A stretch of DNA of 64,000 nt, from the NCBI RefSeq assembly GCF_001748385.1, contig NZ_BCLI01000001.1, forward strand, positions 413,177-477,176, written 5' to 3'. The position numbers and the translations under genes are program-made. Source of the stretch: Vulcanisaeta thermophila. GTDB taxonomy: Archaea; Thermoproteota; Thermoprotei; Thermoproteales; Thermocladiaceae. The notes beneath the pieces are model-generated. The model searched no databases. It was not told the origin of the DNA and saw only the letters and a list, made by a program, of their open reading frames with translations. Shown here one piece after another: positions 5,423-52,119 of this stretch. Position 1 is the stretch's first letter; the number at the start of each line of letters is the position of its first letter.

Positions 5423-6727
5423 ATGGAGGGTAAGGTGGTTAGTATAAGGGATGTGTTCAACCTGAGTGAGGGCTCTGAGGTGACCATAAGGGGTTGGGTG
5501 TATAGGAAGAGGGTCCTTAAGGATAAGGTGTTCCTGGTGGTTAGGGATGGTAGTGGTATTGTGCAGGTGGTTTTTGATAAATCCCTAGGGGAGCCCTTTA
5601 ACATAGCCTCGAAACTCAACATAGAATCCTCCATAATCCTCACAGGGGTCACCAAGAGGGAGCCCAGGGCACCAGGTGGTGTGGAGGTACATGCCAAGGG
5701 GATTAATTGGTACTATGCGGGTTACGAATTCCCAATAAACGAGGATGCGGCCAAGGCCGATAGTGAGTACCTGCTCGACGTTAGGCATTTGTGGCTTAGG
5801 AGTAGGAGGATGTGGGCTGTCCTTAGGGTTAGGCACACGGTTTTCGGAGCCATCCACGAGTTCTTCAGGTCCAGGGGCTACTTCGAGGTTCAGGGTCCCA
5901 TGTTCGTTTCCGCAGCGGTTGAGGGTGGCGCCACGTTATTCCCTGTGGAGTACTTCGACATGAAGAATGTGTACTTGACACAATCCTCCCAGTTCTACCT
6001 CGAGGTCCTAATATACTCGTTGGAAAAGGTCTACACTGTGGCGCCAAGCTTCAGGGCTGAGAAGTCAAGGACTAGGAGGCACCTGACCGAGTTCTGGCAT
6101 GCGGAGGCTGAGGAGGCTTGGTTGCAGTTTGATGGTTTGATGAACTTCCTTGAGGATTTGATAACGTACATTGTGAAGAGGGTCCTTGATGAGAGGCAGG
6201 AGGAATTGAGACTACTGGGTAGGGATACCAGGGTGCTTGAGAATGTGAAGCCCCCATTCCACAGGATTGATTATGATGAGGCCATAAGGATACTGCAGTC
6301 CAAGGGCGTGGGCATAAAGTGGGGCGATGATATTGGGGCTGATGAGGAGAGGGTATTAACGATGCAGTTTGATAAGCCCATACTTCTCCACCACTTCCCA
6401 GAGCGGGTGAAGGCATTCTACCACAGGAATGACCCCTCGAGACCAGAGACCACATTAAGCGTTGATTTACTGGCCCCCGAGGGTTACGGCGAGGTCATTG
6501 GTGGTGGTGAGCGTATATACGACTATGAGGAGCTACTGAGTAAGATTAAGAAGTTTGGGCTGAACCCCGAGGATTATTACTGGTACCTGGACCTTAGGAA
6601 GTACGGCTCCGTACCCCACTCAGGCTTTGGGCTTGGTATTGATAGGCTTGTTATGTGGATATGCGGTTTGGACCACATTAGGGATGCGGTGCCCTTCCCA
6701 AGGGATGTGAGGCGCGTTAAGCCCTGA
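5423..6727 (+). CDS. asnS: Asparaginyl-tRNA synthetase
   Basis: A 434-residue class IIb synthetase that attaches asparagine to tRNA-Asn. Residues ~15-105 form the OB-fold anticodon-binding domain. The class II core follows, with motif 2 around FRAEKSRTRRHLTEFWHAEA and motif 3 GFGLGIDRLVMWICGL near the C-terminus. The HLTEFW stretch and the SRTRRHL context favour AsnRS over archaeal AspRS, though the two families are close. Length is normal for the archaeal enzyme. The Fap7-like gene begins 10 nt downstream, so the two probably share a transcript. Confidence 0.88.
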   Translation: MEGKVVSIRDVFNLSEGSEVTIRGWVYRKRVLKDKVFLVVRDGSGIVQVVFDKSLGEPFNIASKLNIESSIILTGVTKREPRAPGGVEVHAKGINWYYAGYEFPINEDAAKADSEYLLDVRHLWLRSRRMWAVLRVRHTVFGAIHEFFRSRGYFEVQGPMFVSAAVEGGATLFPVEYFDMKNVYLTQSSQFYLEVLIYSLEKVYTVAPSFRAEKSRTRRHLTEFWHAEAEEAWLQFDGLMNFLEDLITYIVKRVLDERQEELRLLGRDTRVLENVKPPFHRIDYDEAIRILQSKGVGIKWGDDIGADEERVLTMQFDKPILLHHFPERVKAFYHRNDPSRPETTLSVDLLAPEGYGEVIGGGERIYDYEELLSKIKKFGLNPEDYYWYLDLRKYGSVPHSGFGLGIDRLVMWICGLDHIRDAVPFPRDVRRVKP

Positions 6728-6736
6728 GGTAGTGAA

Positions 6737-7315
6737 ATGAGGCTTGTAATAACGGGCACGCCGGGCGTGGGGAAAACCACACTGGCCAGTGAATTATCAA
6801 AGGCCCTGGGGCTACCCATAGTTAAGGTTGAGGACTTAATTCATGATTACCTACAATGGGACCCCACACTCCTCACGAATCGCATAGTGAATGTGGAGGA
6901 GGCTTATGAAGAACTGAACCGTAGGCTCAGGGAGATGGGCTCCTACATCGTGGATACGGTTGCCGTGGACCTAATAGACCCATCACTTATTGATTGGTGC
7001 GTGGTTTTACGGCTAGACCCAAGGGAGCTGCTCAGGAGGTTATTAGGTAGGGGTTGGCCTTGGTGTAAGGTTGTGGAGAATGTATTCTCCGAGGTGATTG
7101 GTGTGTTAGCATCCGCGTGCCTAAGCGCCGTGGGCCCCAACCACGTGATTGAAGTCAACACCACGGGTAAGGATGTGGCTCAGGTGGTTAATGAGGTGCT
7201 CAGCGCCATAGCCCATGCCAAGCCCCTTGTTAATTCCGTGGATTGGTTGGAGCTCCTGGACACGGACTTCCTCCTCAATATGGAGGGGGAGTTGGATAAG
7301 TGCCGTGTTTATTAG
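6737..7315 (+). CDS. Fap7/AK6-type adenylate kinase-like NTPase
   Basis: A 192-residue P-loop protein with GTPGVGKTT at residues 7-15 directly after the first strand, as in the Fap7/AK6 (hCINAP) group. That group acts as an atypical adenylate kinase/ATPase in small-subunit ribosome maturation. The lid region (LRLDPRELLRRLLGRGW) has the expected R-x-x-x-R pattern. It follows asnS by 10 nt. Its stop overlaps the stop of the convergent gene at 7312 by three bases. Confidence 0.8.
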   Translation: MRLVITGTPGVGKTTLASELSKALGLPIVKVEDLIHDYLQWDPTLLTNRIVNVEEAYEELNRRLREMGSYIVDTVAVDLIDPSLIDWCVVLRLDPRELLRRLLGRGWPWCKVVENVFSEVIGVLASACLSAVGPNHVIEVNTTGKDVAQVVNEVLSAIAHAKPLVNSVDWLELLDTDFLLNMEGELDKCRVY

Positions 7316-7698
7316 TCCGTGTACCTTACACTCTTCATTAACCTCCTTATCTCAAACATGAACTCCCTCTTCCAACCCATACTCTCCAACCTCTTACTTA
7401 CTATCCTAAGCGTACCAGCCCTGAGGCTCACGAGCAATGCCTTACCCACGCTCTTACCCTGCATGAAGAACCTAACCAGGACTAATCTATCGCTTTCGTA
7501 CTCGAACACGTAATCCCTAGCCGACTTGTACTTACCCAGTACGTGGGAGAACTCCTCCTCGGCCATGTCTACGTATGAGATCATGTCGGGGTCCACCTCC
7601 ATGTAATCAAGCTTGTGTAGCCCCGCATTTTCAAGGTCCAGGAGCGCAGTATCAATATCCTTCTTCACCTCGTATATTGCAATGCCATAAATACGCAT
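7312..7698 (-). CDS. Unrecognised soluble protein, about 128 residues
   Basis: From ATG 7698 this encodes a mixed alpha/beta protein (MRIYGIAIYEVKKDIDTALL...) rich in acidic residues in the middle and basic residues at the C-terminus, with no membrane segment. The open frame extends to 7740. A TTTTTAAA element at 7729-7736 on this strand lies about 28-38 nt from 7698 and would overlap the longer version, so 7698 is preferred. It is convergent with the Fap7-like gene, with stops overlapping. I do not recognise a family. Confidence 0.6.
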   Translation of the reverse strand: MRIYGIAIYEVKKDIDTALLDLENAGLHKLDYMEVDPDMISYVDMAEEEFSHVLGKYKSARDYVFEYESDRLVLVRFFMQGKSVGKALLVSLRAGTLRIVSKRLESMGWKREFMFEIRRLMKSVRYTD

Positions 7699-7757
7699 GC
7701 AACTCGCCGCGTAACGAATAACGTATTGGTTTAAAAACATTTTGGTTAGTAATTAAT

Positions 7758-9038
7758 TCAAGGAATAATGTGCCCATTAATCACCATGAACCATAGGTAG
7801 TAAATTAGGGAGTTGACAATGGTGACTGGGAGTCCATACCTAATGAACTCCAGGAACCCAAAGCCCTCACCACCCCTCTTCTCACTGGCTTCATTGATTA
7901 TCACATTACTCGCGGCACCCAGTAATGTTAGGTTCCCGGCTATTGTGCTTGAGGCTGCGAGTCCAACCCATGCCAGGTAGTTCGTTGGTGATACGCCCAG
8001 GCTCTTCATGAGTGGTATGTACAGCGCCACCATGGGCACATTACTAATAACCTGACTCAGTAGTAACCCTGATATGAATATGCCAGGTAAGGTCGTGGGC
8101 TGCGGCAGGTAATGGGCCAGGAAGCCCAGAACACCCGACTTCAACGCTCCGTCACTAACTATAAATAGCCCTATGAAGAATAGTATTGTGGTCCAATCCA
8201 CATTCTGGGCAATACTCCTCCTATCACTACTCACTAGGTATAGTACCGAGGCGCCCGTGAAGGCGAGGGTCACCGGTGTTAGGTATGGGCTTACGCTGTA
8301 TATGTCGGTTATGAAGAACAGGGGTATTAACAGGGCGAGGATTGCCAGGGCTGTGTAGGCAAGCTTAGCATTTATCAGTAATTCCCTGGGGTTCCTAACC
8401 TCAATGAGCTCCACATCATCATTACCATCACCGCGAAATAATATGAGTAGTAATGGGTATGTGATGAGTATGTTAATCAGCGTGGGTGGGAGTAGGTATA
8501 GGGTGAAGATTACGAAGGGCCTTGGCACACCGGACTCCAGTGCTATGAGTAGGTTTTGTGGGTTGCCAATGGGCAGTGCCACACTTCCTATGGTTACTCC
8601 AAAGGCCAGTGCGTAGAGGAGTGGTTTTATGTTGATCCTGGCGTACCTCCTCATGGAGACGATAACAGGTGTGAAGCTACCTGCTATGCCATCGTTTGAA
8701 AGCACCAGGGATAGTGCCGCTGATGAAACAAAAACCCTAAGTATTAAACTCCTCATCTTATCGCTACTGAGCATTAACCTGTACGCCAGGTAATTAAAGA
8801 AGCCACTAACCTCCAGGGCTGATGATACCGTGAATAGTGAGATTAGGAATAATATCACGTTTAGGTTTATTGCCGAGAGGGCCTCAGTGGGCGTTAGTAT
8901 GCCCAGGGCTATGGTTAACGAAGCCCCAAGGAGCATGGCGGCCCAGGGCTGTATATTGAGCCTACCCACACCCCTCAGAGCTATCAAGCCATAGGTTATA
9001 CTGAGTATTACTAGGTCCAAAGCGAACCTATCCATCAT
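7758..9038 (-). CDS. ArsB/NhaD/SLC13-type ion permease
   Basis: A 426-residue polytopic protein with about 10-12 transmembrane helices and the inverted-repeat signatures of the ion transporter superfamily: GNPQNLLIALESG in the first half and GNLTLLGAASNVI in the second, plus SNVPMVAL. This architecture exports or exchanges anions such as arsenite or dicarboxylates, or Na+/H+; the substrate cannot be assigned from sequence. A TATA element at 9069-9077, read on this strand, sits about 30 nt upstream of the ATG. The same element faces the guide RNA candidate on the other strand. Confidence 0.85.
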   Translation of the reverse strand: MMDRFALDLVILSITYGLIALRGVGRLNIQPWAAMLLGASLTIALGILTPTEALSAINLNVILFLISLFTVSSALEVSGFFNYLAYRLMLSSDKMRSLILRVFVSSAALSLVLSNDGIAGSFTPVIVSMRRYARINIKPLLYALAFGVTIGSVALPIGNPQNLLIALESGVPRPFVIFTLYLLPPTLINILITYPLLLILFRGDGNDDVELIEVRNPRELLINAKLAYTALAILALLIPLFFITDIYSVSPYLTPVTLAFTGASVLYLVSSDRRSIAQNVDWTTILFFIGLFIVSDGALKSGVLGFLAHYLPQPTTLPGIFISGLLLSQVISNVPMVALYIPLMKSLGVSPTNYLAWVGLAASSTIAGNLTLLGAASNVIINEASEKRGGEGFGFLEFIRYGLPVTIVNSLIYYLWFMVINGHIIP

Positions 9039-47266: not shown

Positions 47267-48799
47267 ATGAGCCTGGACTTTCAATTAATAAGGCCAGCGG
47301 GGGAGTTTAAGGAGCTGGAACGATACCCACTTTATGAGCCCTTCGCATACGCATCCATAATCGAGAATGAGAAGACCGGCGATTTAATGTATTACCTTGA
47401 TGAGATACAGCTGGACCCCAATGAGGCTAGTGTTTACAGGGAGCTTCTTAGGATCGTGATGCTGGAGTTACCACCACCAGAGGACCTGGTTAAGGTGGGT
47501 GATGTTAAGAATTACCTACTCAATGAATTGAAGAAGATAGTGAATAGGTATAGGAGGTTGTTCAGGGGCGTATCCACAGTGTCCTTCGCAAAATTCCTAT
47601 ACTACATGGAGAAGGACCTACTGGGCTTTGGGCCCATTGATGCCTTGATGAGGGATGAGAATATAGAGGATATTTCATGCGACGGTGTTGGGAGGCCCAT
47701 ATACGTATTCCACAGGAAGTACGAGTCAATACCAACCAATATAGTTCCCATGACGGACCAGGCACTGGATGACCTAGTTGTTAAGTTGATACACATGTCT
47801 GGGAGGCACGTTTCAGTGGCAACACCCATAGTGGATGCCCAGTTACCTGATGGTTCCAGGATAGCCGTGACGTACAGGCACGAGGTGTCACCAGGTGGTT
47901 CCACATTCACAATAAGGAAATTCAGGAAGAACCCACTCACATTCACAGAACTCGTTAAGTTCGGAAACATAAGCCCAGAGATAGCCGGGTACTTCTGGGT
48001 CATGCTGGACAATGGCAGGTCATTCCTAGTGCTTGGTGTTACAGGTGCGGGCAAGACCAGCTTCCTAAATGCCATGGCAACATTCATAAGGCCCCACATG
48101 AAGATAATAACCGTTGAGGAAGTCCCCGAGATAAACCTACCACACAAGAACTGGGTTAGGCTGGTCACTAGGCAGAGCTACGGTTCCGAGAGAATTAACG
48201 AAATAACACTATTCGACCTAGTCAAGGCAACACTGAGGATGAGGCCAGACTACCTAATTGTGGGTGAGATCAGGGGTGAGGAGGCCTACGTGCTGTTCCA
48301 GGCTGTGAATACGGGCCATAGCGGTATATCCACAATGCACGCCGAGTCCTTCGAAGCCGCAGTGAATAGGCTCATGAGCCCGCCCATGAACATACCACCC
48401 GCTTACATACCGGCAATGAACATATTCGTAATGATAAAGAGGGTTAAGCTGAATGGTAGGTTAACAAGGAGGGTTACTGAGGTTGGTGAGGTCTACATGG
48501 ATGAGTCCGGCAGGATTAAGTTTAACACGGTGTTTAAGTGGAACCCGAGGTATGATAGGCATGAGTCGTACATTAGCAATAGCATATTGATTAGGCAGGT
48601 TAGTGAGATGACAGGTAAGGATGTAGATGAGTTGCTCAGGGAGATCGAGACCAGGTCCAAGATTGTGGAGTGGCTCGTGAGCAATAATGTCTTTAACTTT
48701 GAGGATGTGGCCACATACGTACAGGCATACTATACAAACCCAGACAGGGTTTTGAACCTAGTTTATGGGAAGGTGAGTGAAATTGAGATTACTACTTAG
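47267..48799 (+). CDS. Type II/IV secretion or pilus-type ATPase
   Basis: A 510-residue GspE/TadA-like hexameric ATPase. Walker A is GVTGAGKT (257-264), the Asp box IITVEEVPE (~280-288), Walker B YLIVGEIRGEE (329-339), and the His box GHSGISTMHAE (350-360). The N-terminal ~230 residues hold the usual alpha/beta domain (LGFGPIDALMRDENIEDI). A GGTATTTTAAGGG element fits ATG 47267. Unlike normal archaeal pilus or archaellum loci, no TadC/ArlJ platform protein follows. Two overlapping genes (48777, 49142) and a convergent four-gene operon of related small proteins come next. The next gene overlaps its end by 23 nt. Confidence 0.88.
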   Translation: MSLDFQLIRPAGEFKELERYPLYEPFAYASIIENEKTGDLMYYLDEIQLDPNEASVYRELLRIVMLELPPPEDLVKVGDVKNYLLNELKKIVNRYRRLFRGVSTVSFAKFLYYMEKDLLGFGPIDALMRDENIEDISCDGVGRPIYVFHRKYESIPTNIVPMTDQALDDLVVKLIHMSGRHVSVATPIVDAQLPDGSRIAVTYRHEVSPGGSTFTIRKFRKNPLTFTELVKFGNISPEIAGYFWVMLDNGRSFLVLGVTGAGKTSFLNAMATFIRPHMKIITVEEVPEINLPHKNWVRLVTRQSYGSERINEITLFDLVKATLRMRPDYLIVGEIRGEEAYVLFQAVNTGHSGISTMHAESFEAAVNRLMSPPMNIPPAYIPAMNIFVMIKRVKLNGRLTRRVTEVGEVYMDESGRIKFNTVFKWNPRYDRHESYISNSILIRQVSEMTGKDVDELLREIETRSKIVEWLVSNNVFNFEDVATYVQAYYTNPDRVLNLVYGKVSEIEITT

Positions 48800-49145
48800 G
48801 TTTGATAGCACAGAATCGCTGATTAGGTACTTAAATGAGGAATTGAGTAAACTGAGGACAGCGAGGGGCATCCTCGAGAAGGCAATAGGCACCAGTGGGT
48901 ACCTGGAGGTTGTGGATATTAACTTGAACAATGAAATTAGGGTGGATAGGGTAAGTGCGGGTGAGGTGAGGGCCATAATTAGTGAAATTGATAATAAGAT
49001 AACGGCGATAAACAAGATAATAAACGAATTAAGCAACTTATTAGGTACGAACAACGCCAATTATAAAGGCACGGTATTCCTAGAGTATGAGAATGGGTAT
49101 CCATCCAGGGTAATAATAACGCAACCAATGGTGGTGAGCCCATGA
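48777..49145 (+). CDS. Member of an ATPase-linked helix/hairpin family
   Basis: A 122-residue protein starting at GTG 48777 inside the ATPase gene. Its start (LLLRFDSTESLIRYLNEEL) closely resembles that of the convergent 49997 protein (ISIKRFDSINSLIRYLKSEI). The order is helix 1 (~10-38), strand pair (YLEVVDINLNNEIRVDRV), long helix 2 (EVRAIISEIDNKITAINKII), and C-terminal hairpin TVFLEYENGYPSRVIITQP. The hairpin recurs in five neighbouring proteins. It overlaps the next gene by 4 nt (ATGA). There is no signal peptide; it is probably cytoplasmic. Function unknown. Confidence 0.65.
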   Translation: MKLRLLLRFDSTESLIRYLNEELSKLRTARGILEKAIGTSGYLEVVDINLNNEIRVDRVSAGEVRAIISEIDNKITAINKIINELSNLLGTNNANYKGTVFLEYENGYPSRVIITQPMVVSP

Positions 49146-50008
49146 TAGCCCTGGCAGTACTAATGCTCCTAATAATCATGGTGGGACTATTAATAATGGG
49201 GCTGTTGAGGCCCCCGTTGGCTGTGATCCTACCCATACTGGCGGTCTACATAATAATAATGGCATTACCCATGATACTCACCACATTCACAATAATCAAG
49301 GGGCTAACCCCAAGTAACCCGATACTCATAGCCGTTCCATTAATTGGTTTCGCACTGGGTTACGGTATTTCAGTAATTGCCGAGAAACTCCTGAACGTAA
49401 ACATAAGGAACTTAATAATTAAACCCAGCGGCAAAAACAAGAGGGTTAAGAGGGAAATCGCCAAGGAGCAGGTTAGTATTGATAGGTTGCTTAGTGGTAA
49501 GGGTGAGGTGAAGCTTGAGGAGATAATTAATGAGGCAATAACAACACTCAAGTTCCAGGAGAGGAGGTACCTGGGGCTTTCGATGGAGTACTATGATGAT
49601 TGGAACGACGCAGTACTGGGCCTTGCGAGGAACCTCTCAATATATAGGGAAATGGTTGACCTAATAACCAAGGACCTAGAATTCATTAAGAGTGTTTTAG
49701 ATTATGAGGGGAGGGCACTATCCGCCGGTTATTCCATTGTTGATGAGGGTTACGTAAAGGTTAAGGCTAAGAAGGAGGGTGCTGGTGGGGGTGTGGTGGT
49801 CTTCGAGCCCATTGAGGGCATTGCCAATGACCTCTTCACAACGCTACAGGTGATGAGTAACGAAGTAATTAATTACTATGATAAACTAATGGATGAATTA
49901 CTACACGCGATGCAACCAATAATGTCAGGAACCCCATTAATAGTCATTTACCAGGATGGGGTACCAAGGCGGGTTATAGTACTACCAAATGCCTCATCAC
50001 TGCCTTAA
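49142..50008 (+). CDS. Membrane-anchored member of the helix/hairpin family
   Basis: A 288-residue protein. The first ~95 residues contain about three transmembrane helices (IALAVLMLLIIMVGLLIMGL, then two more), and the rest is cytoplasmic. The soluble part shows the helix - strands - helix - hairpin plan: a helix near YYDDWNDAVLGLARNLSIY, strands YVKVKAKKEGAGGGVVVF, helix VINYYDKLMDELLHAMQPI, and hairpin TPLIVIYQDGVPRRVIVLP. It could be the membrane dock for the ATPase; no TadC/ArlJ homology is visible. Its 3' end overlaps the convergent operon by 12 nt. Confidence 0.65.
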   Translation: MIALAVLMLLIIMVGLLIMGLLRPPLAVILPILAVYIIIMALPMILTTFTIIKGLTPSNPILIAVPLIGFALGYGISVIAEKLLNVNIRNLIIKPSGKNKRVKREIAKEQVSIDRLLSGKGEVKLEEIINEAITTLKFQERRYLGLSMEYYDDWNDAVLGLARNLSIYREMVDLITKDLEFIKSVLDYEGRALSAGYSIVDEGYVKVKAKKEGAGGGVVVFEPIEGIANDLFTTLQVMSNEVINYYDKLMDELLHAMQPIMSGTPLIVIYQDGVPRRVIVLPNASSLP

Positions 50009-50422
50009 CCTATCCGTGTTTATGTTGTTGATGGTTATTATCATTATGGGTATGGAGTCCAGCAGTAGGGCTATTACGGGTACGCCCTTATCCTCATCAC
50101 TAAGGGGTTCCAACCTCTCGATGATCGCGTTTAATATCATGGATTTATGCTGGAGATAGCTCACGGCCTCATTAATCACGCTATTCATGGTGTTACTCCC
50201 AGGCTTATAAATAATCCTTAGGCTGTAAACCTCCTGCCCATCCATAACAAATCTAATCCTCTCGGAAACCTCTACTGATAATTGTCTATCACTCTCAGTC
50301 CCTAACAATGACTCCCAATTCTGCTTAATCATCATTAAATACCTAGTGCTGTTTCCAATCTCACTCTTTAAATAACGTATTAAACTATTAATCGAGTCAA
50401 ATCTCTTAATGGATATCATCAT
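49997..50422 (-). CDS. Member of an ATPase-linked helix/hairpin family
   Basis: A 141-residue protein, last in a four-gene operon. RFDSINSLIRYLKSEI at the N-terminus mirrors the plus-strand 48777 protein. A helix then leads to strands LSVEVSERIRFVM and VYSLRIIYKP, helix MNSVINEAVSYLQHKSMILNAIIERL, and hairpin PVIALLLDSIPIMIITIN. The paralogy between the two convergent units is clearest in this pair. It overlaps the upstream gene by 4 nt. Confidence 0.62.
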   Translation of the reverse strand: MMISIKRFDSINSLIRYLKSEIGNSTRYLMMIKQNWESLLGTESDRQLSVEVSERIRFVMDGQEVYSLRIIYKPGSNTMNSVINEAVSYLQHKSMILNAIIERLEPLSDEDKGVPVIALLLDSIPIMIITINNINTDRLRQ

Positions 50423-51063
50423 ACAACACCACCCATCAACACCTCCTCAGCCTTCCTTATCTTATCTGGGTATGCGTAATTCTTAACATCAACCGTGGTC
50501 TCCACAACCACCGAACCCTTACTAACCAACTCAAGATACTGATCAATCACCCTCCCCACATAGGCAGCCTCCTCAGGGTCTAACCCATGAACCCCACTCA
50601 ACACCGTGGGCACCTCAACCCTCTCCTTAACACCTGGGAACTCCATGAGAAACTCCGTAGTGGCCAACTTGGGACCCACCAACACATTAACCGTGCCCCG
50701 CGCCTCATCAACAATGATAACAGCCCCACCCCCAATGCCAATCCTCTCAAGAACGTCACGGGTCTGGTTGAGCATGACCAGTAGGCTTGTGTAATAATTA
50801 ACTACCTCCTTAATTACATTAAGGCGCTCAGTGGCCGAGAATACAAACTCCACCTCAAAGTTACCCTTACCCTTAACATTATAATGGCCATCACCACCCA
50901 CTAGCCTAGCATCCCTCCACCTTCTCCTAACCTCCCTCATTAATTCATTAATGTCCTTATCATCAAAAACGGCTACCCTGCTCACCATGTCTAAAACCTC
51001 ATTGACAATCCTACCCAACTCCTCAATTATCCTACTCAAGTCATCACTGCTTATTATCATCAA
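50419..51063 (-). CDS. Longer member of the helix/hairpin family
   Basis: A 214-residue protein. Helix 1 (LSRIIEELGRIVNEVLDMVSR) is followed by strands HYNVKGKGNFEVEFVF, helix VIKEVVNYYTSLLVMLNQTRDVLE, and hairpin GAVIIVDEARGTVNVLVGP, matching the soluble part of the 49142 protein segment for segment (both have an N/V-N-Y-Y helix). An additional C-terminal ~75 residues (VHGLDPEEAAYVGRVIDQYLE...) are unique. It overlaps its neighbours by 4 and 20 nt. Function unknown. Confidence 0.62.
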   Translation of the reverse strand: MMIISSDDLSRIIEELGRIVNEVLDMVSRVAVFDDKDINELMREVRRRWRDARLVGGDGHYNVKGKGNFEVEFVFSATERLNVIKEVVNYYTSLLVMLNQTRDVLERIGIGGGAVIIVDEARGTVNVLVGPKLATTEFLMEFPGVKERVEVPTVLSGVHGLDPEEAAYVGRVIDQYLELVSKGSVVVETTVDVKNYAYPDKIRKAEEVLMGGVV

Positions 51064-51445
51064 GTTGTATCACCACCGTGGCTGGTGTATCTCCGAAGTA
51101 CCTCACGATGAGTTTTACATCACCACCCCTCTCCTTTATATTCTTTAATCTATTTTCTAAATAATCATAAATTGCATAGTTAATTTTTAAAAATTCCAAT
51201 GCACGGCCCAGCAATTCTATGTATGATTTTCTTGACAATCCGTTATGTATTATTATGGGTATTGCATTGGGTATGTTCATAACCACCCTCTTACTATCCT
51301 CGGGTAGGTTGGCCTTGTTCATCATGATTTCATTGTATGCCTTTATAATAAAGTCTATATAGCTCAGTATGTATGCCTTATTCTCACTGGCCTTATTTAT
51401 TAGGTAGTCCAGGGATACGTTTGTATCAATAACCTGGTTACTCAT
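51044..51445 (-). CDS. Member of an ATPase-linked helix/hairpin family
   Basis: A 133-residue protein: helix 1 (SLDYLINKASENKAYILSYI), strands RVVMNIPNAIPIIIHN, helix 2 (YIELLGRALEFLKINYAIYD), and hairpin DVKLIVRYFGDTPATVVIQL. The pattern matches the other five members although residue identity is low. It overlaps the upstream gene by 4 nt and the downstream gene by 20 nt, so translation is likely coupled. Confidence 0.6.
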   Translation of the reverse strand: MSNQVIDTNVSLDYLINKASENKAYILSYIDFIIKAYNEIMMNKANLPEDSKRVVMNIPNAIPIIIHNGLSRKSYIELLGRALEFLKINYAIYDYLENRLKNIKERGGDVKLIVRYFGDTPATVVIQLDDNKQ

Positions 51446-51837
51446 GGCATGATCACCAGTTTAGTACGCTTATTCACATAATCTATGAATAAAGCCACGG
51501 AGGCCCCCCTGGCGTTAATGCTCTGTAGGTAACTAATTACCTTATCGATTTCGTTTATTATGAAGTTTATAAATGCCAGGTTTTCATTCAATTTATTGAA
51601 GAGCCAGGAGTAGTGGGGTGCTAGGTGTATTGATATGTTGAATGTGGCTGATTGAATGTTGATGGCCCTATGCCTTGGTATTATCCCCATCCTAACCATT
51701 CTATTCTCAATATCAACATTACCCTTTATATTATTTTCCAAAGCCTCATAACTATTCCTAACCGTGAGTAGTCTATCCCTAATGCTCGTTAATTTCTCAA
51801 TGGCTACCTCAATATTTGTGAAGTATAGCGTGATCAT
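51442..51837 (-). CDS. First gene of the helix/hairpin operon
   Basis: A 131-residue protein: helix 1 (VAIEKLTSIRDRLLTVRNSY), strands AINIQSATFNISIHLAP, helix 2 (FNKLNENLAFINFIINEIDKVI), and hairpin SVALFIDYVNKRTKLVIMP. It heads the minus-strand operon 51837 to 49997. The AT-rich element AATAAATATTT (51866-51876 on this strand) is a suitable promoter. No known domain is recognised. Confidence 0.6.
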   Translation of the reverse strand: MITLYFTNIEVAIEKLTSIRDRLLTVRNSYEALENNIKGNVDIENRMVRMGIIPRHRAINIQSATFNISIHLAPHYSWLFNKLNENLAFINFIINEIDKVISYLQSINARGASVALFIDYVNKRTKLVIMP

Positions 51838-51894
51838 TCAACTCTCACGATTAAGTAGAACAGAAATATTTATTCTTTACCCCGTTCCACACTG

Positions 51895-52119
51895 TTAATA
51901 GTCCTTGAGCTTATTAATTATAGTTTTTATATCCCTCTGTATGTTATTAACATCGTGCCTTATGGATAATAACTCCTCCATAACCCTACTATTATCTAGG
52001 CAGCCCATAATGAGCTCAGCCCAACTCCTAGCTTTATACCTCTGCTTTATCTGCCTAAGCCTTTTGTATGTCTCTTCATCAACCTCTATAATAATACGCC
52101 TCTTCCCACTTTTAGACAC
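51895..52119 (-). CDS. Ribbon-helix-helix DNA-binding protein with a coiled-coil tail
   Basis: A 74-residue protein starting at GTG 52119. Residues 1-45 are a ribbon-helix-helix domain: the basic strand KRRIIIEVDEETYKRLRQIKQ, then helix 2 RSWAELIMGCL. The C-terminal 30 residues (LLSIRHDVNNIQRDIKTIIN) have heptad spacing for a coiled coil. CTTTAAAAAG on this strand lies about 26 nt upstream. Its position directly upstream of the helix/hairpin operon makes it a likely regulator of that locus (inference). Confidence 0.72.
   Translation of the reverse strand: MSKSGKRRIIIEVDEETYKRLRQIKQRYKARSWAELIMGCLDNSRVMEELLSIRHDVNNIQRDIKTIINKLKDY

Follow-up and report, generated by a model that had tools for sequence, protein, structure and literature searches.

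A predicted archaeal type IV pilus motor and a six-member family of small proteins at a conserved Vulcanisaeta thermophila locus

Which machine is served where a secretion-type ATPase gene and a set of small genes without a named family are packed into two converging units? The question is raised by positions 47267-52119 of a 64,000-nucleotide (nt) window, i.e., the whole stretch of DNA analysed here, from Vulcanisaeta thermophila (GCF_001748385.1, contig NZ_BCLI01000001.1, positions 413,177 to 477,176, forward strand; genome size 2.02 Mb). At this locus, plus-strand ATPase1, P2, and P3 meet minus-strand P4, P5, P6, and P7, with P8 upstream of P7 (Table 1). An earlier note on this DNA had proposed an undescribed multi-subunit machine, possibly pilus-like or serving DNA uptake or secretion, that arose by expansion of one module around the ATPase. 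Here, we find that the locus is most likely a rearranged and expanded type IV pilus (T4P) motor/accessory module and not an unknown class of machine, because ATPase1 reads as a T4P motor, the gene for its probable platform protein lies at another site, and members of the module family stand beside pilin genes in distant archaea. The sixfold module, its tie to the ATPase, and the pilus-like character are thus retained from that proposal, while the undescribed class is given up and no evidence for DNA uptake emerged.

Beyond the archaellum and the Sulfolobus systems, little is known about the cytoplasmic powering and control of archaeal pili. An undescribed Thermoproteota family that has no Pfam or NCBIfam model is here tied to T4P by repeated operon linkage, and one lineage shows it grown to six paralogues around a single motor, providing defined proteins of heat-loving archaea as candidates for ATPase- and platform-binding tests.

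Table 1 Genes of the locus and its flank, in window positions (aa, amino acids)
Gene	Position	Strand	Product	Evidence
ATPase1	47267..48799	+	510-aa assembly motor of GspE/TadA/ArlI type	Pfam T2SSE, NCBIfam ArlI, PDB matches
P2	48777..49145	+	Cytoplasmic module protein; GTG start	far-M0 profile, hhalign
P3	49142..50008	+	N-terminal transmembrane segments and C-terminal cytoplasmic module (P3c); membrane-anchored	far-M0 profile on orthologues
P4	49997..50422	-	Module protein; best structural representative	AlphaFold, far-M0 profile
P5	50419..51063	-	Module protein; TTG start, C-terminal extension, most divergent member	hhalign, far-M0 profile
P6	51044..51445	-	Module protein	hhalign, far-M0 profile on orthologues
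P7	51442..51837	-	Module protein; probable first gene of minus-strand operon	hhalign, far-M0 profile on orthologues
P8	51895..52119	-	Small ribbon-helix-helix/VapB-antitoxin-like protein	Pfam VAPB_antitox 0.006 (below cutoff), Vulcanisaeta conservation
P9	45787..47169	-	Secreted-type, N-x-S/T-rich protein; gene divergent from that of ATPase1	Synteny

The ATPase and its six partners

That ATPase1 is a GspE/TadA-type secretion ATPase, as first proposed, is confirmed by intact motifs (Walker A GVTGAGKT, GEIRG, and TGHSGISTMHA), by Pfam T2SSE (2e-34), by NCBIfam models, and by PDB relatives including AfGspE (4e-104), FlaI (2e-79), and CpaF (4e-50). It is a GspE/VirB11-family assembly ATPase and, judged from its sequence, an archaeal T4P motor. 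The best NCBIfam model was ArlI (9e-118, 394.2 bits), and the BasE model also matched (7.5e-69, 232.8 bits); both scores fall short of the respective cutoffs of 550 and 1000 bits for an archaellum ArlI equivalog and a bindosome BasE. The archaellum is thus the system whose motor lies nearest among the NCBIfam models, but no archaellum genes were seen in the locus, and P2-P7 have no sequence match to a named family. In arrangement, the membrane-anchored cytoplasmic partner P3 presumably recalls ArlX.

P2-P7 are paralogues of one family, with one module repeated six times. Alignments from within the genus alone gave weak but collinear profile matches among the six. Once homologues were added from g4, a genus of the same family, and from genome G001 (genus g5) of another family, f2, hhalign paired P2 with P4 at 77%, P4 with P6 at 62% (113 columns), P2 with P7 at 65%, and P3c with P2 at 39%, against at most 9% for controls. 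A chain of hhalign matches (P2-P4, P4-P6, P2-P7, and P3c-P2/P4; controls at most about 9-11%) links the members. G1a, a module protein in a pilus operon of G001 (locus L067, below), paired with P7 at 63% and with P2 at 91.5%. The C-terminal hairpin lines up in the merged family alignment.

The layout of helix, strands, helix, and C-terminal hairpin that the earlier note had described for all six is real, as judged by these chains, a P4 model, and a profile from outside the order. P4, modelled by AlphaFold with 30 family rows, reached pLDDT 81 and pTM 0.67 with a predicted beta-alpha-beta-beta-alpha-beta-beta topology (strand 3-8, helix 11-34, strands 52-60 and 63-72, helix 76-104, strands 116-121 and 124-130); the family layout is modelled with confidence for P4 only. 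Full-length P3 was modelled poorly (pLDDT 47.5), and nothing about its fold is drawn from that model beyond the hairpin; hydropathy and model both support the membrane domain ascribed to this protein and place it at the N-terminus. Foldseek gave no significant fold match for the family, nor did a viral fold library, and none of P2-P7 was named by Pfam, NCBIfam, or PDB sequence searches.

A search with the merged family profile also turned up another protein, M0 (probability 97.9%, E 6.5e-13; G000:C7:54588-55025, L179), in genomes across the order, and M0 provided an independent test of the family. A profile of 60 M0 homologues from outside the order (far-M0) was run against the 196 open reading frames (ORFs) of the window and ranked P4 first (5.7e-11), P2 second (1.7e-7), P5 third (0.0084), P3 fourth (0.017), P7 sixth (0.1), and P6 ninth (0.71). 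Against orthologues, its best E-values were 6.6e-12 for P7, 1.9e-11 for P4, 6.8e-8 for P2, 1.4e-7 for P6, 2.7e-5 for P3c, and 2.5e-3 for P5, with controls (prefoldin beta and another neighbour) at E >= 0.25. Reverse searches of 1,297 ORFs with the six member profiles returned M0 on top each time (6/6), and hhalign paired M0 with P2 at 92%, P6 at 81%, and P5 at 45% (99 columns). All six thus combine the beta-alpha-2beta-alpha-2beta layout with a match to the M0 profile; P5, whose profile match is weakest, is the least certain member.

Conservation, platform protein, and the M0 family

Gene positions proved as claimed, as did the minus-strand overlaps (4, 20, and 4 nt) and the 12-nt overlap where the units converge; the ATPase1 and P2 genes overlap by 23 nt, and the ORF list adds P8 to the genes named before. 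The eight genes from ATPase1 to P8, together with P9, keep the same order in all seven other Vulcanisaeta records (7/7) and again in L089. Convergence and close packing are kept across the genus, the exact 12-nt overlap is not. Across Vulcanisaeta, mean identity to the window is high for ATPase1 (86%), for TmcA next to the locus (76%), and for a prefoldin subunit (88%), compared with 32-53% for P2-P7, which are therefore fast-evolving. Several locus genes are broken in the JCM draft genomes L009, L011, and L013, likely by sequencing errors, as the frames are intact elsewhere.

Beyond Vulcanisaeta (g1), we compared genera of the same family (g2, g3, and g4) and two other families, f2 and f3. 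In g4, ATPase1-P2-P3 stand together after a second pilus-type ATPase and a transmembrane protein, and all six members are kept, spread over three loci (ATPase1-P2-P3, a separate P7-P6-P5 operon, and P4). In g2, a P6-like and a P5-like gene overlap by 20 nt (L187 2206-3250, L188 2055-3015) and adjoin a DHH-family gene; the Vulcanisaeta locus is flanked by the counterpart of that gene. A family common to the six and a conserved linkage to the ATPase were the two points by which the note's claim was to be judged, and both came out in its favour, the linkage throughout Vulcanisaeta and, for the ATPase-P2-P3 half, in g4. The two convergent units are real and syntenic in Vulcanisaeta, but they are neighbours only there; since P7-P6-P5 in g4 and P6-P5 in g2 are unlinked from the ATPase, the units are separable gene sets.

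The platform candidate is TadC619, a 619-aa two-repeat T2SSF protein on G000 contig C10, unlinked to ATPase1, which matches UpsF/BasF at about 1e-22, far below curated cutoffs. In G001, pilus operon L067 holds a class III pilin, a 595-aa TadC, the 138-aa P2/P7-like G1a, a 338-aa transmembrane protein, ATPase1, a 251-aa protein, and further pilin-like genes. Within the order, ATPase1 orthologues above 650 bits occur in g1, g2, g4, and G001 (in pieces in some drafts), and clear orthologues (E <1e-20) of the L067 TadC occur in g1, g2, g4, and g5 only; neither protein is present in g3 or anywhere in f3. These matching genus distributions are the main reason for pairing ATPase1 with TadC619, which would be its cognate TadC/ArlJ-type platform in Vulcanisaeta itself. 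In both Vulcanisaeta and g4, the TadC gene adjoins one for a ParA/MinD-like protein. As in the crenarchaeal Bas/Ups/Aap pili (BasE-BasF, UpsE-UpsF), a BasE-like motor would act with a UpsF/BasF-like platform; here, however, the two are unlinked, and six module proteins lie beside the motor.

The main text of a survey of archaeal pili (Makarova, Koonin and Albers 2016, PMC4858521) describes Thermoproteales pili as evolving rapidly and modularly, with stand-alone pilins and ATPase/TadC pairs acting in trans, and notes a subclade-4A ATPase of Vulcanisaeta and Caldivirga with two neighbours, one cytoplasmic and one in the membrane. This trio is probably ATPase1, P2, and P3. As in the subclade 4A and 4E systems of that text, the gene of a motor ATPase precedes those of two small proteins, one cytoplasmic and one a membrane protein; by contrast, the main text mentions neither the six-member expansion nor M0. 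Further literature searches found no mention of the family. The 4E-like loci that we read run TadC, ATPase, 70-aa protein, 168-aa protein. Neither these two small proteins, which gave no convincing profile match, nor transmembrane protein G1b of L067 could be supported as P2/P3 homologues, leaving analogy only.

M0 (~140 aa) is the commonest form of the family, present, mostly as a single copy, in 101 of 300 sampled Thermoproteota genomes, and with no Pfam or NCBIfam model and no PDB sequence match it is an undescribed phylum-wide protein family. At 21 of the 60 M0 loci examined outside the order (L217-L276), M0 comes directly after a class III signal-peptide pilin gene of the same strand, with a gap of 10-121 bp or a slight overlap; at L232, the pilin gene is divergent and M0 sits between it and a pilus ATPase. 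The hit lists for the remaining stretches held no pilin-like gene. At some pilin-M0 loci, two roadblock-like genes come next and a divergent pilus ATPase gene is present, and one distant lineage shows the arrangement helix-turn-helix-pilin-M0-roadblock-roadblock; the same main text (PMC4858521) describes roadblock proteins in the neighbourhood of T4P loci. One lineage therefore shows a strong linkage of M0 to pili and a few others lend it support, while the rest show none.

Roles considered for the six proteins

If the locus is a T4P module, it would encode the motor side of a machine with scattered genes. ATPase1 would hydrolyse ATP, probably as a hexamer like its relatives, and drive the TadC/BasF-like TadC619, which would insert or extract pilins. 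The module, predicted to have one beta-hairpin between its two helices and another at the C-terminus, would be cytoplasmic; P3 would anchor one copy to the membrane, P2, co-produced with P3, would bind it, and these two with P4-P7 would form a hetero-oligomeric collar in the cytoplasm. With moderate confidence, we take this collar to couple ATPase1 to its platform or to select the pilins handled, which would make it comparable in role, not in sequence, to the ArlX/ArlH or GspL/PilM-PilN adaptors. We infer complex formation, stoichiometry, and an adaptor role for P2-P7 from these data, and their molecular role may be that of a motor adaptor or of a chaperone-like scaffold.

Several observations weigh against this assignment. 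The Vulcanisaeta locus holds no platform gene and, in any Vulcanisaeta genome, no pilin gene, so that assigning filament components is indirect, and the pairing of ATPase1 with TadC619 draws on their joint presence in four genera and on a single operon common to both. In g2, ATPase1 and TadC619 are both kept, yet only P6-like and P5-like members were found there; the full set of six is thus not indispensable. Outside the pilin-linked group, M0 is in most lineages not beside pilus genes and stands among metabolic ones, for example between sucCD-like and pyrophosphatase genes.

The chaperone alternative takes the six as a dedicated holdase for pilins or other clients, with prefoldin-like helices as tentacles on a strand core in a six-subunit heterohexamer. 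Prefoldin shares the antiparallel helices joined by a beta-hairpin, Foldseek repeatedly returned weak matches to its subunits (7wu7_4, probability 0.91, TM-score by target 0.70, E 0.42; several more), one lineage has M0 immediately behind a pilin gene, and Vulcanisaeta and g4 both keep all six members. Every such match was insignificant, however (E >0.2), coiled-coil likeness is common by chance, and the extra N-terminal strand and C-terminal hairpin of the module are foreign to prefoldin. Neither M0 nor P2-P7 exceeded the gathering score of Pfam Prefoldin or Prefoldin_2, and M0 was rejected as prefoldin alpha because the genuine subunit is encoded separately. We therefore treat the resemblance as a lead and judge a dedicated chaperone unlikely. 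It is similarly doubtful, though worth stating, that the six paralogues form one heterohexameric prefoldin-like cytoplasmic ring, with one subunit membrane-anchored, docked on the six-fold pilus ATPase; if so, the ring would be an archaeal T4P coupling complex derived from the single ancestral protein M0, with no described counterpart.

Alternatively, the ATPase and the minus-strand operon may be mere neighbours, P4-P7 sharing a housekeeping role with M0, as the unlinked P7-P6-P5 of g4, the unlinked P6-P5 of g2, and the frequent metabolic surroundings of M0 would allow. We hold this to be improbable, given that in both Vulcanisaeta and g4 the ATPase gene forms one transcription unit with P2 and P3, of the same family, that a relative of the six lies in the G001 pilus operon, and that synteny is complete across Vulcanisaeta. 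Least probable of all is a machine that has become a pilin-free secretion or membrane device in which the six subunits replace pilin functions: the missing pilin gene, the fast-evolving partners, and the pilin-free subclade 4D suggested for other Thermoproteales ATPases in the main text of PMC4858521 speak for it, but G001 has the same ATPase/TadC pair together with class III pilins, stand-alone pilins acting in trans are the norm for these archaea according to that text, and the genome does hold pilin-like genes (L077).

Flanking genes and further observations

P8, kept in the Vulcanisaeta loci, is a candidate regulator of the minus-strand operon. P9, syntenic at all Vulcanisaeta loci with a mean identity of 52%, matched no known family in Pfam and NCBIfam searches and may be a surface component.

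Other pilus-type genes were also seen. A second pilus ATPase with two pilin-like genes lies at L077 5401-7688, at the end of contig G000:C1, and another such set at L079, with a 514-aa TadC-like protein a few kb off. At L078 (G000:C4:7000-21000), positions 5842-8900 hold a pilin-free pilus-type ATPase, a protein with five transmembrane segments, and a TFB-like gene, resembling the odd 'subclade 4D' of the main text of PMC4858521.

Around M0, large (about 720-1210 aa) membrane-anchored surface proteins adjoin the gene in L217, L219, L220, L226, L231, and L232, the last with beta-propeller-, PEGA-, and CarboxypepD_reg-like domains. In two families, the gene just downstream of M0 encodes a small histidine-rich protein with runs of H (L230 5637-6008 and L233 5889-6236).

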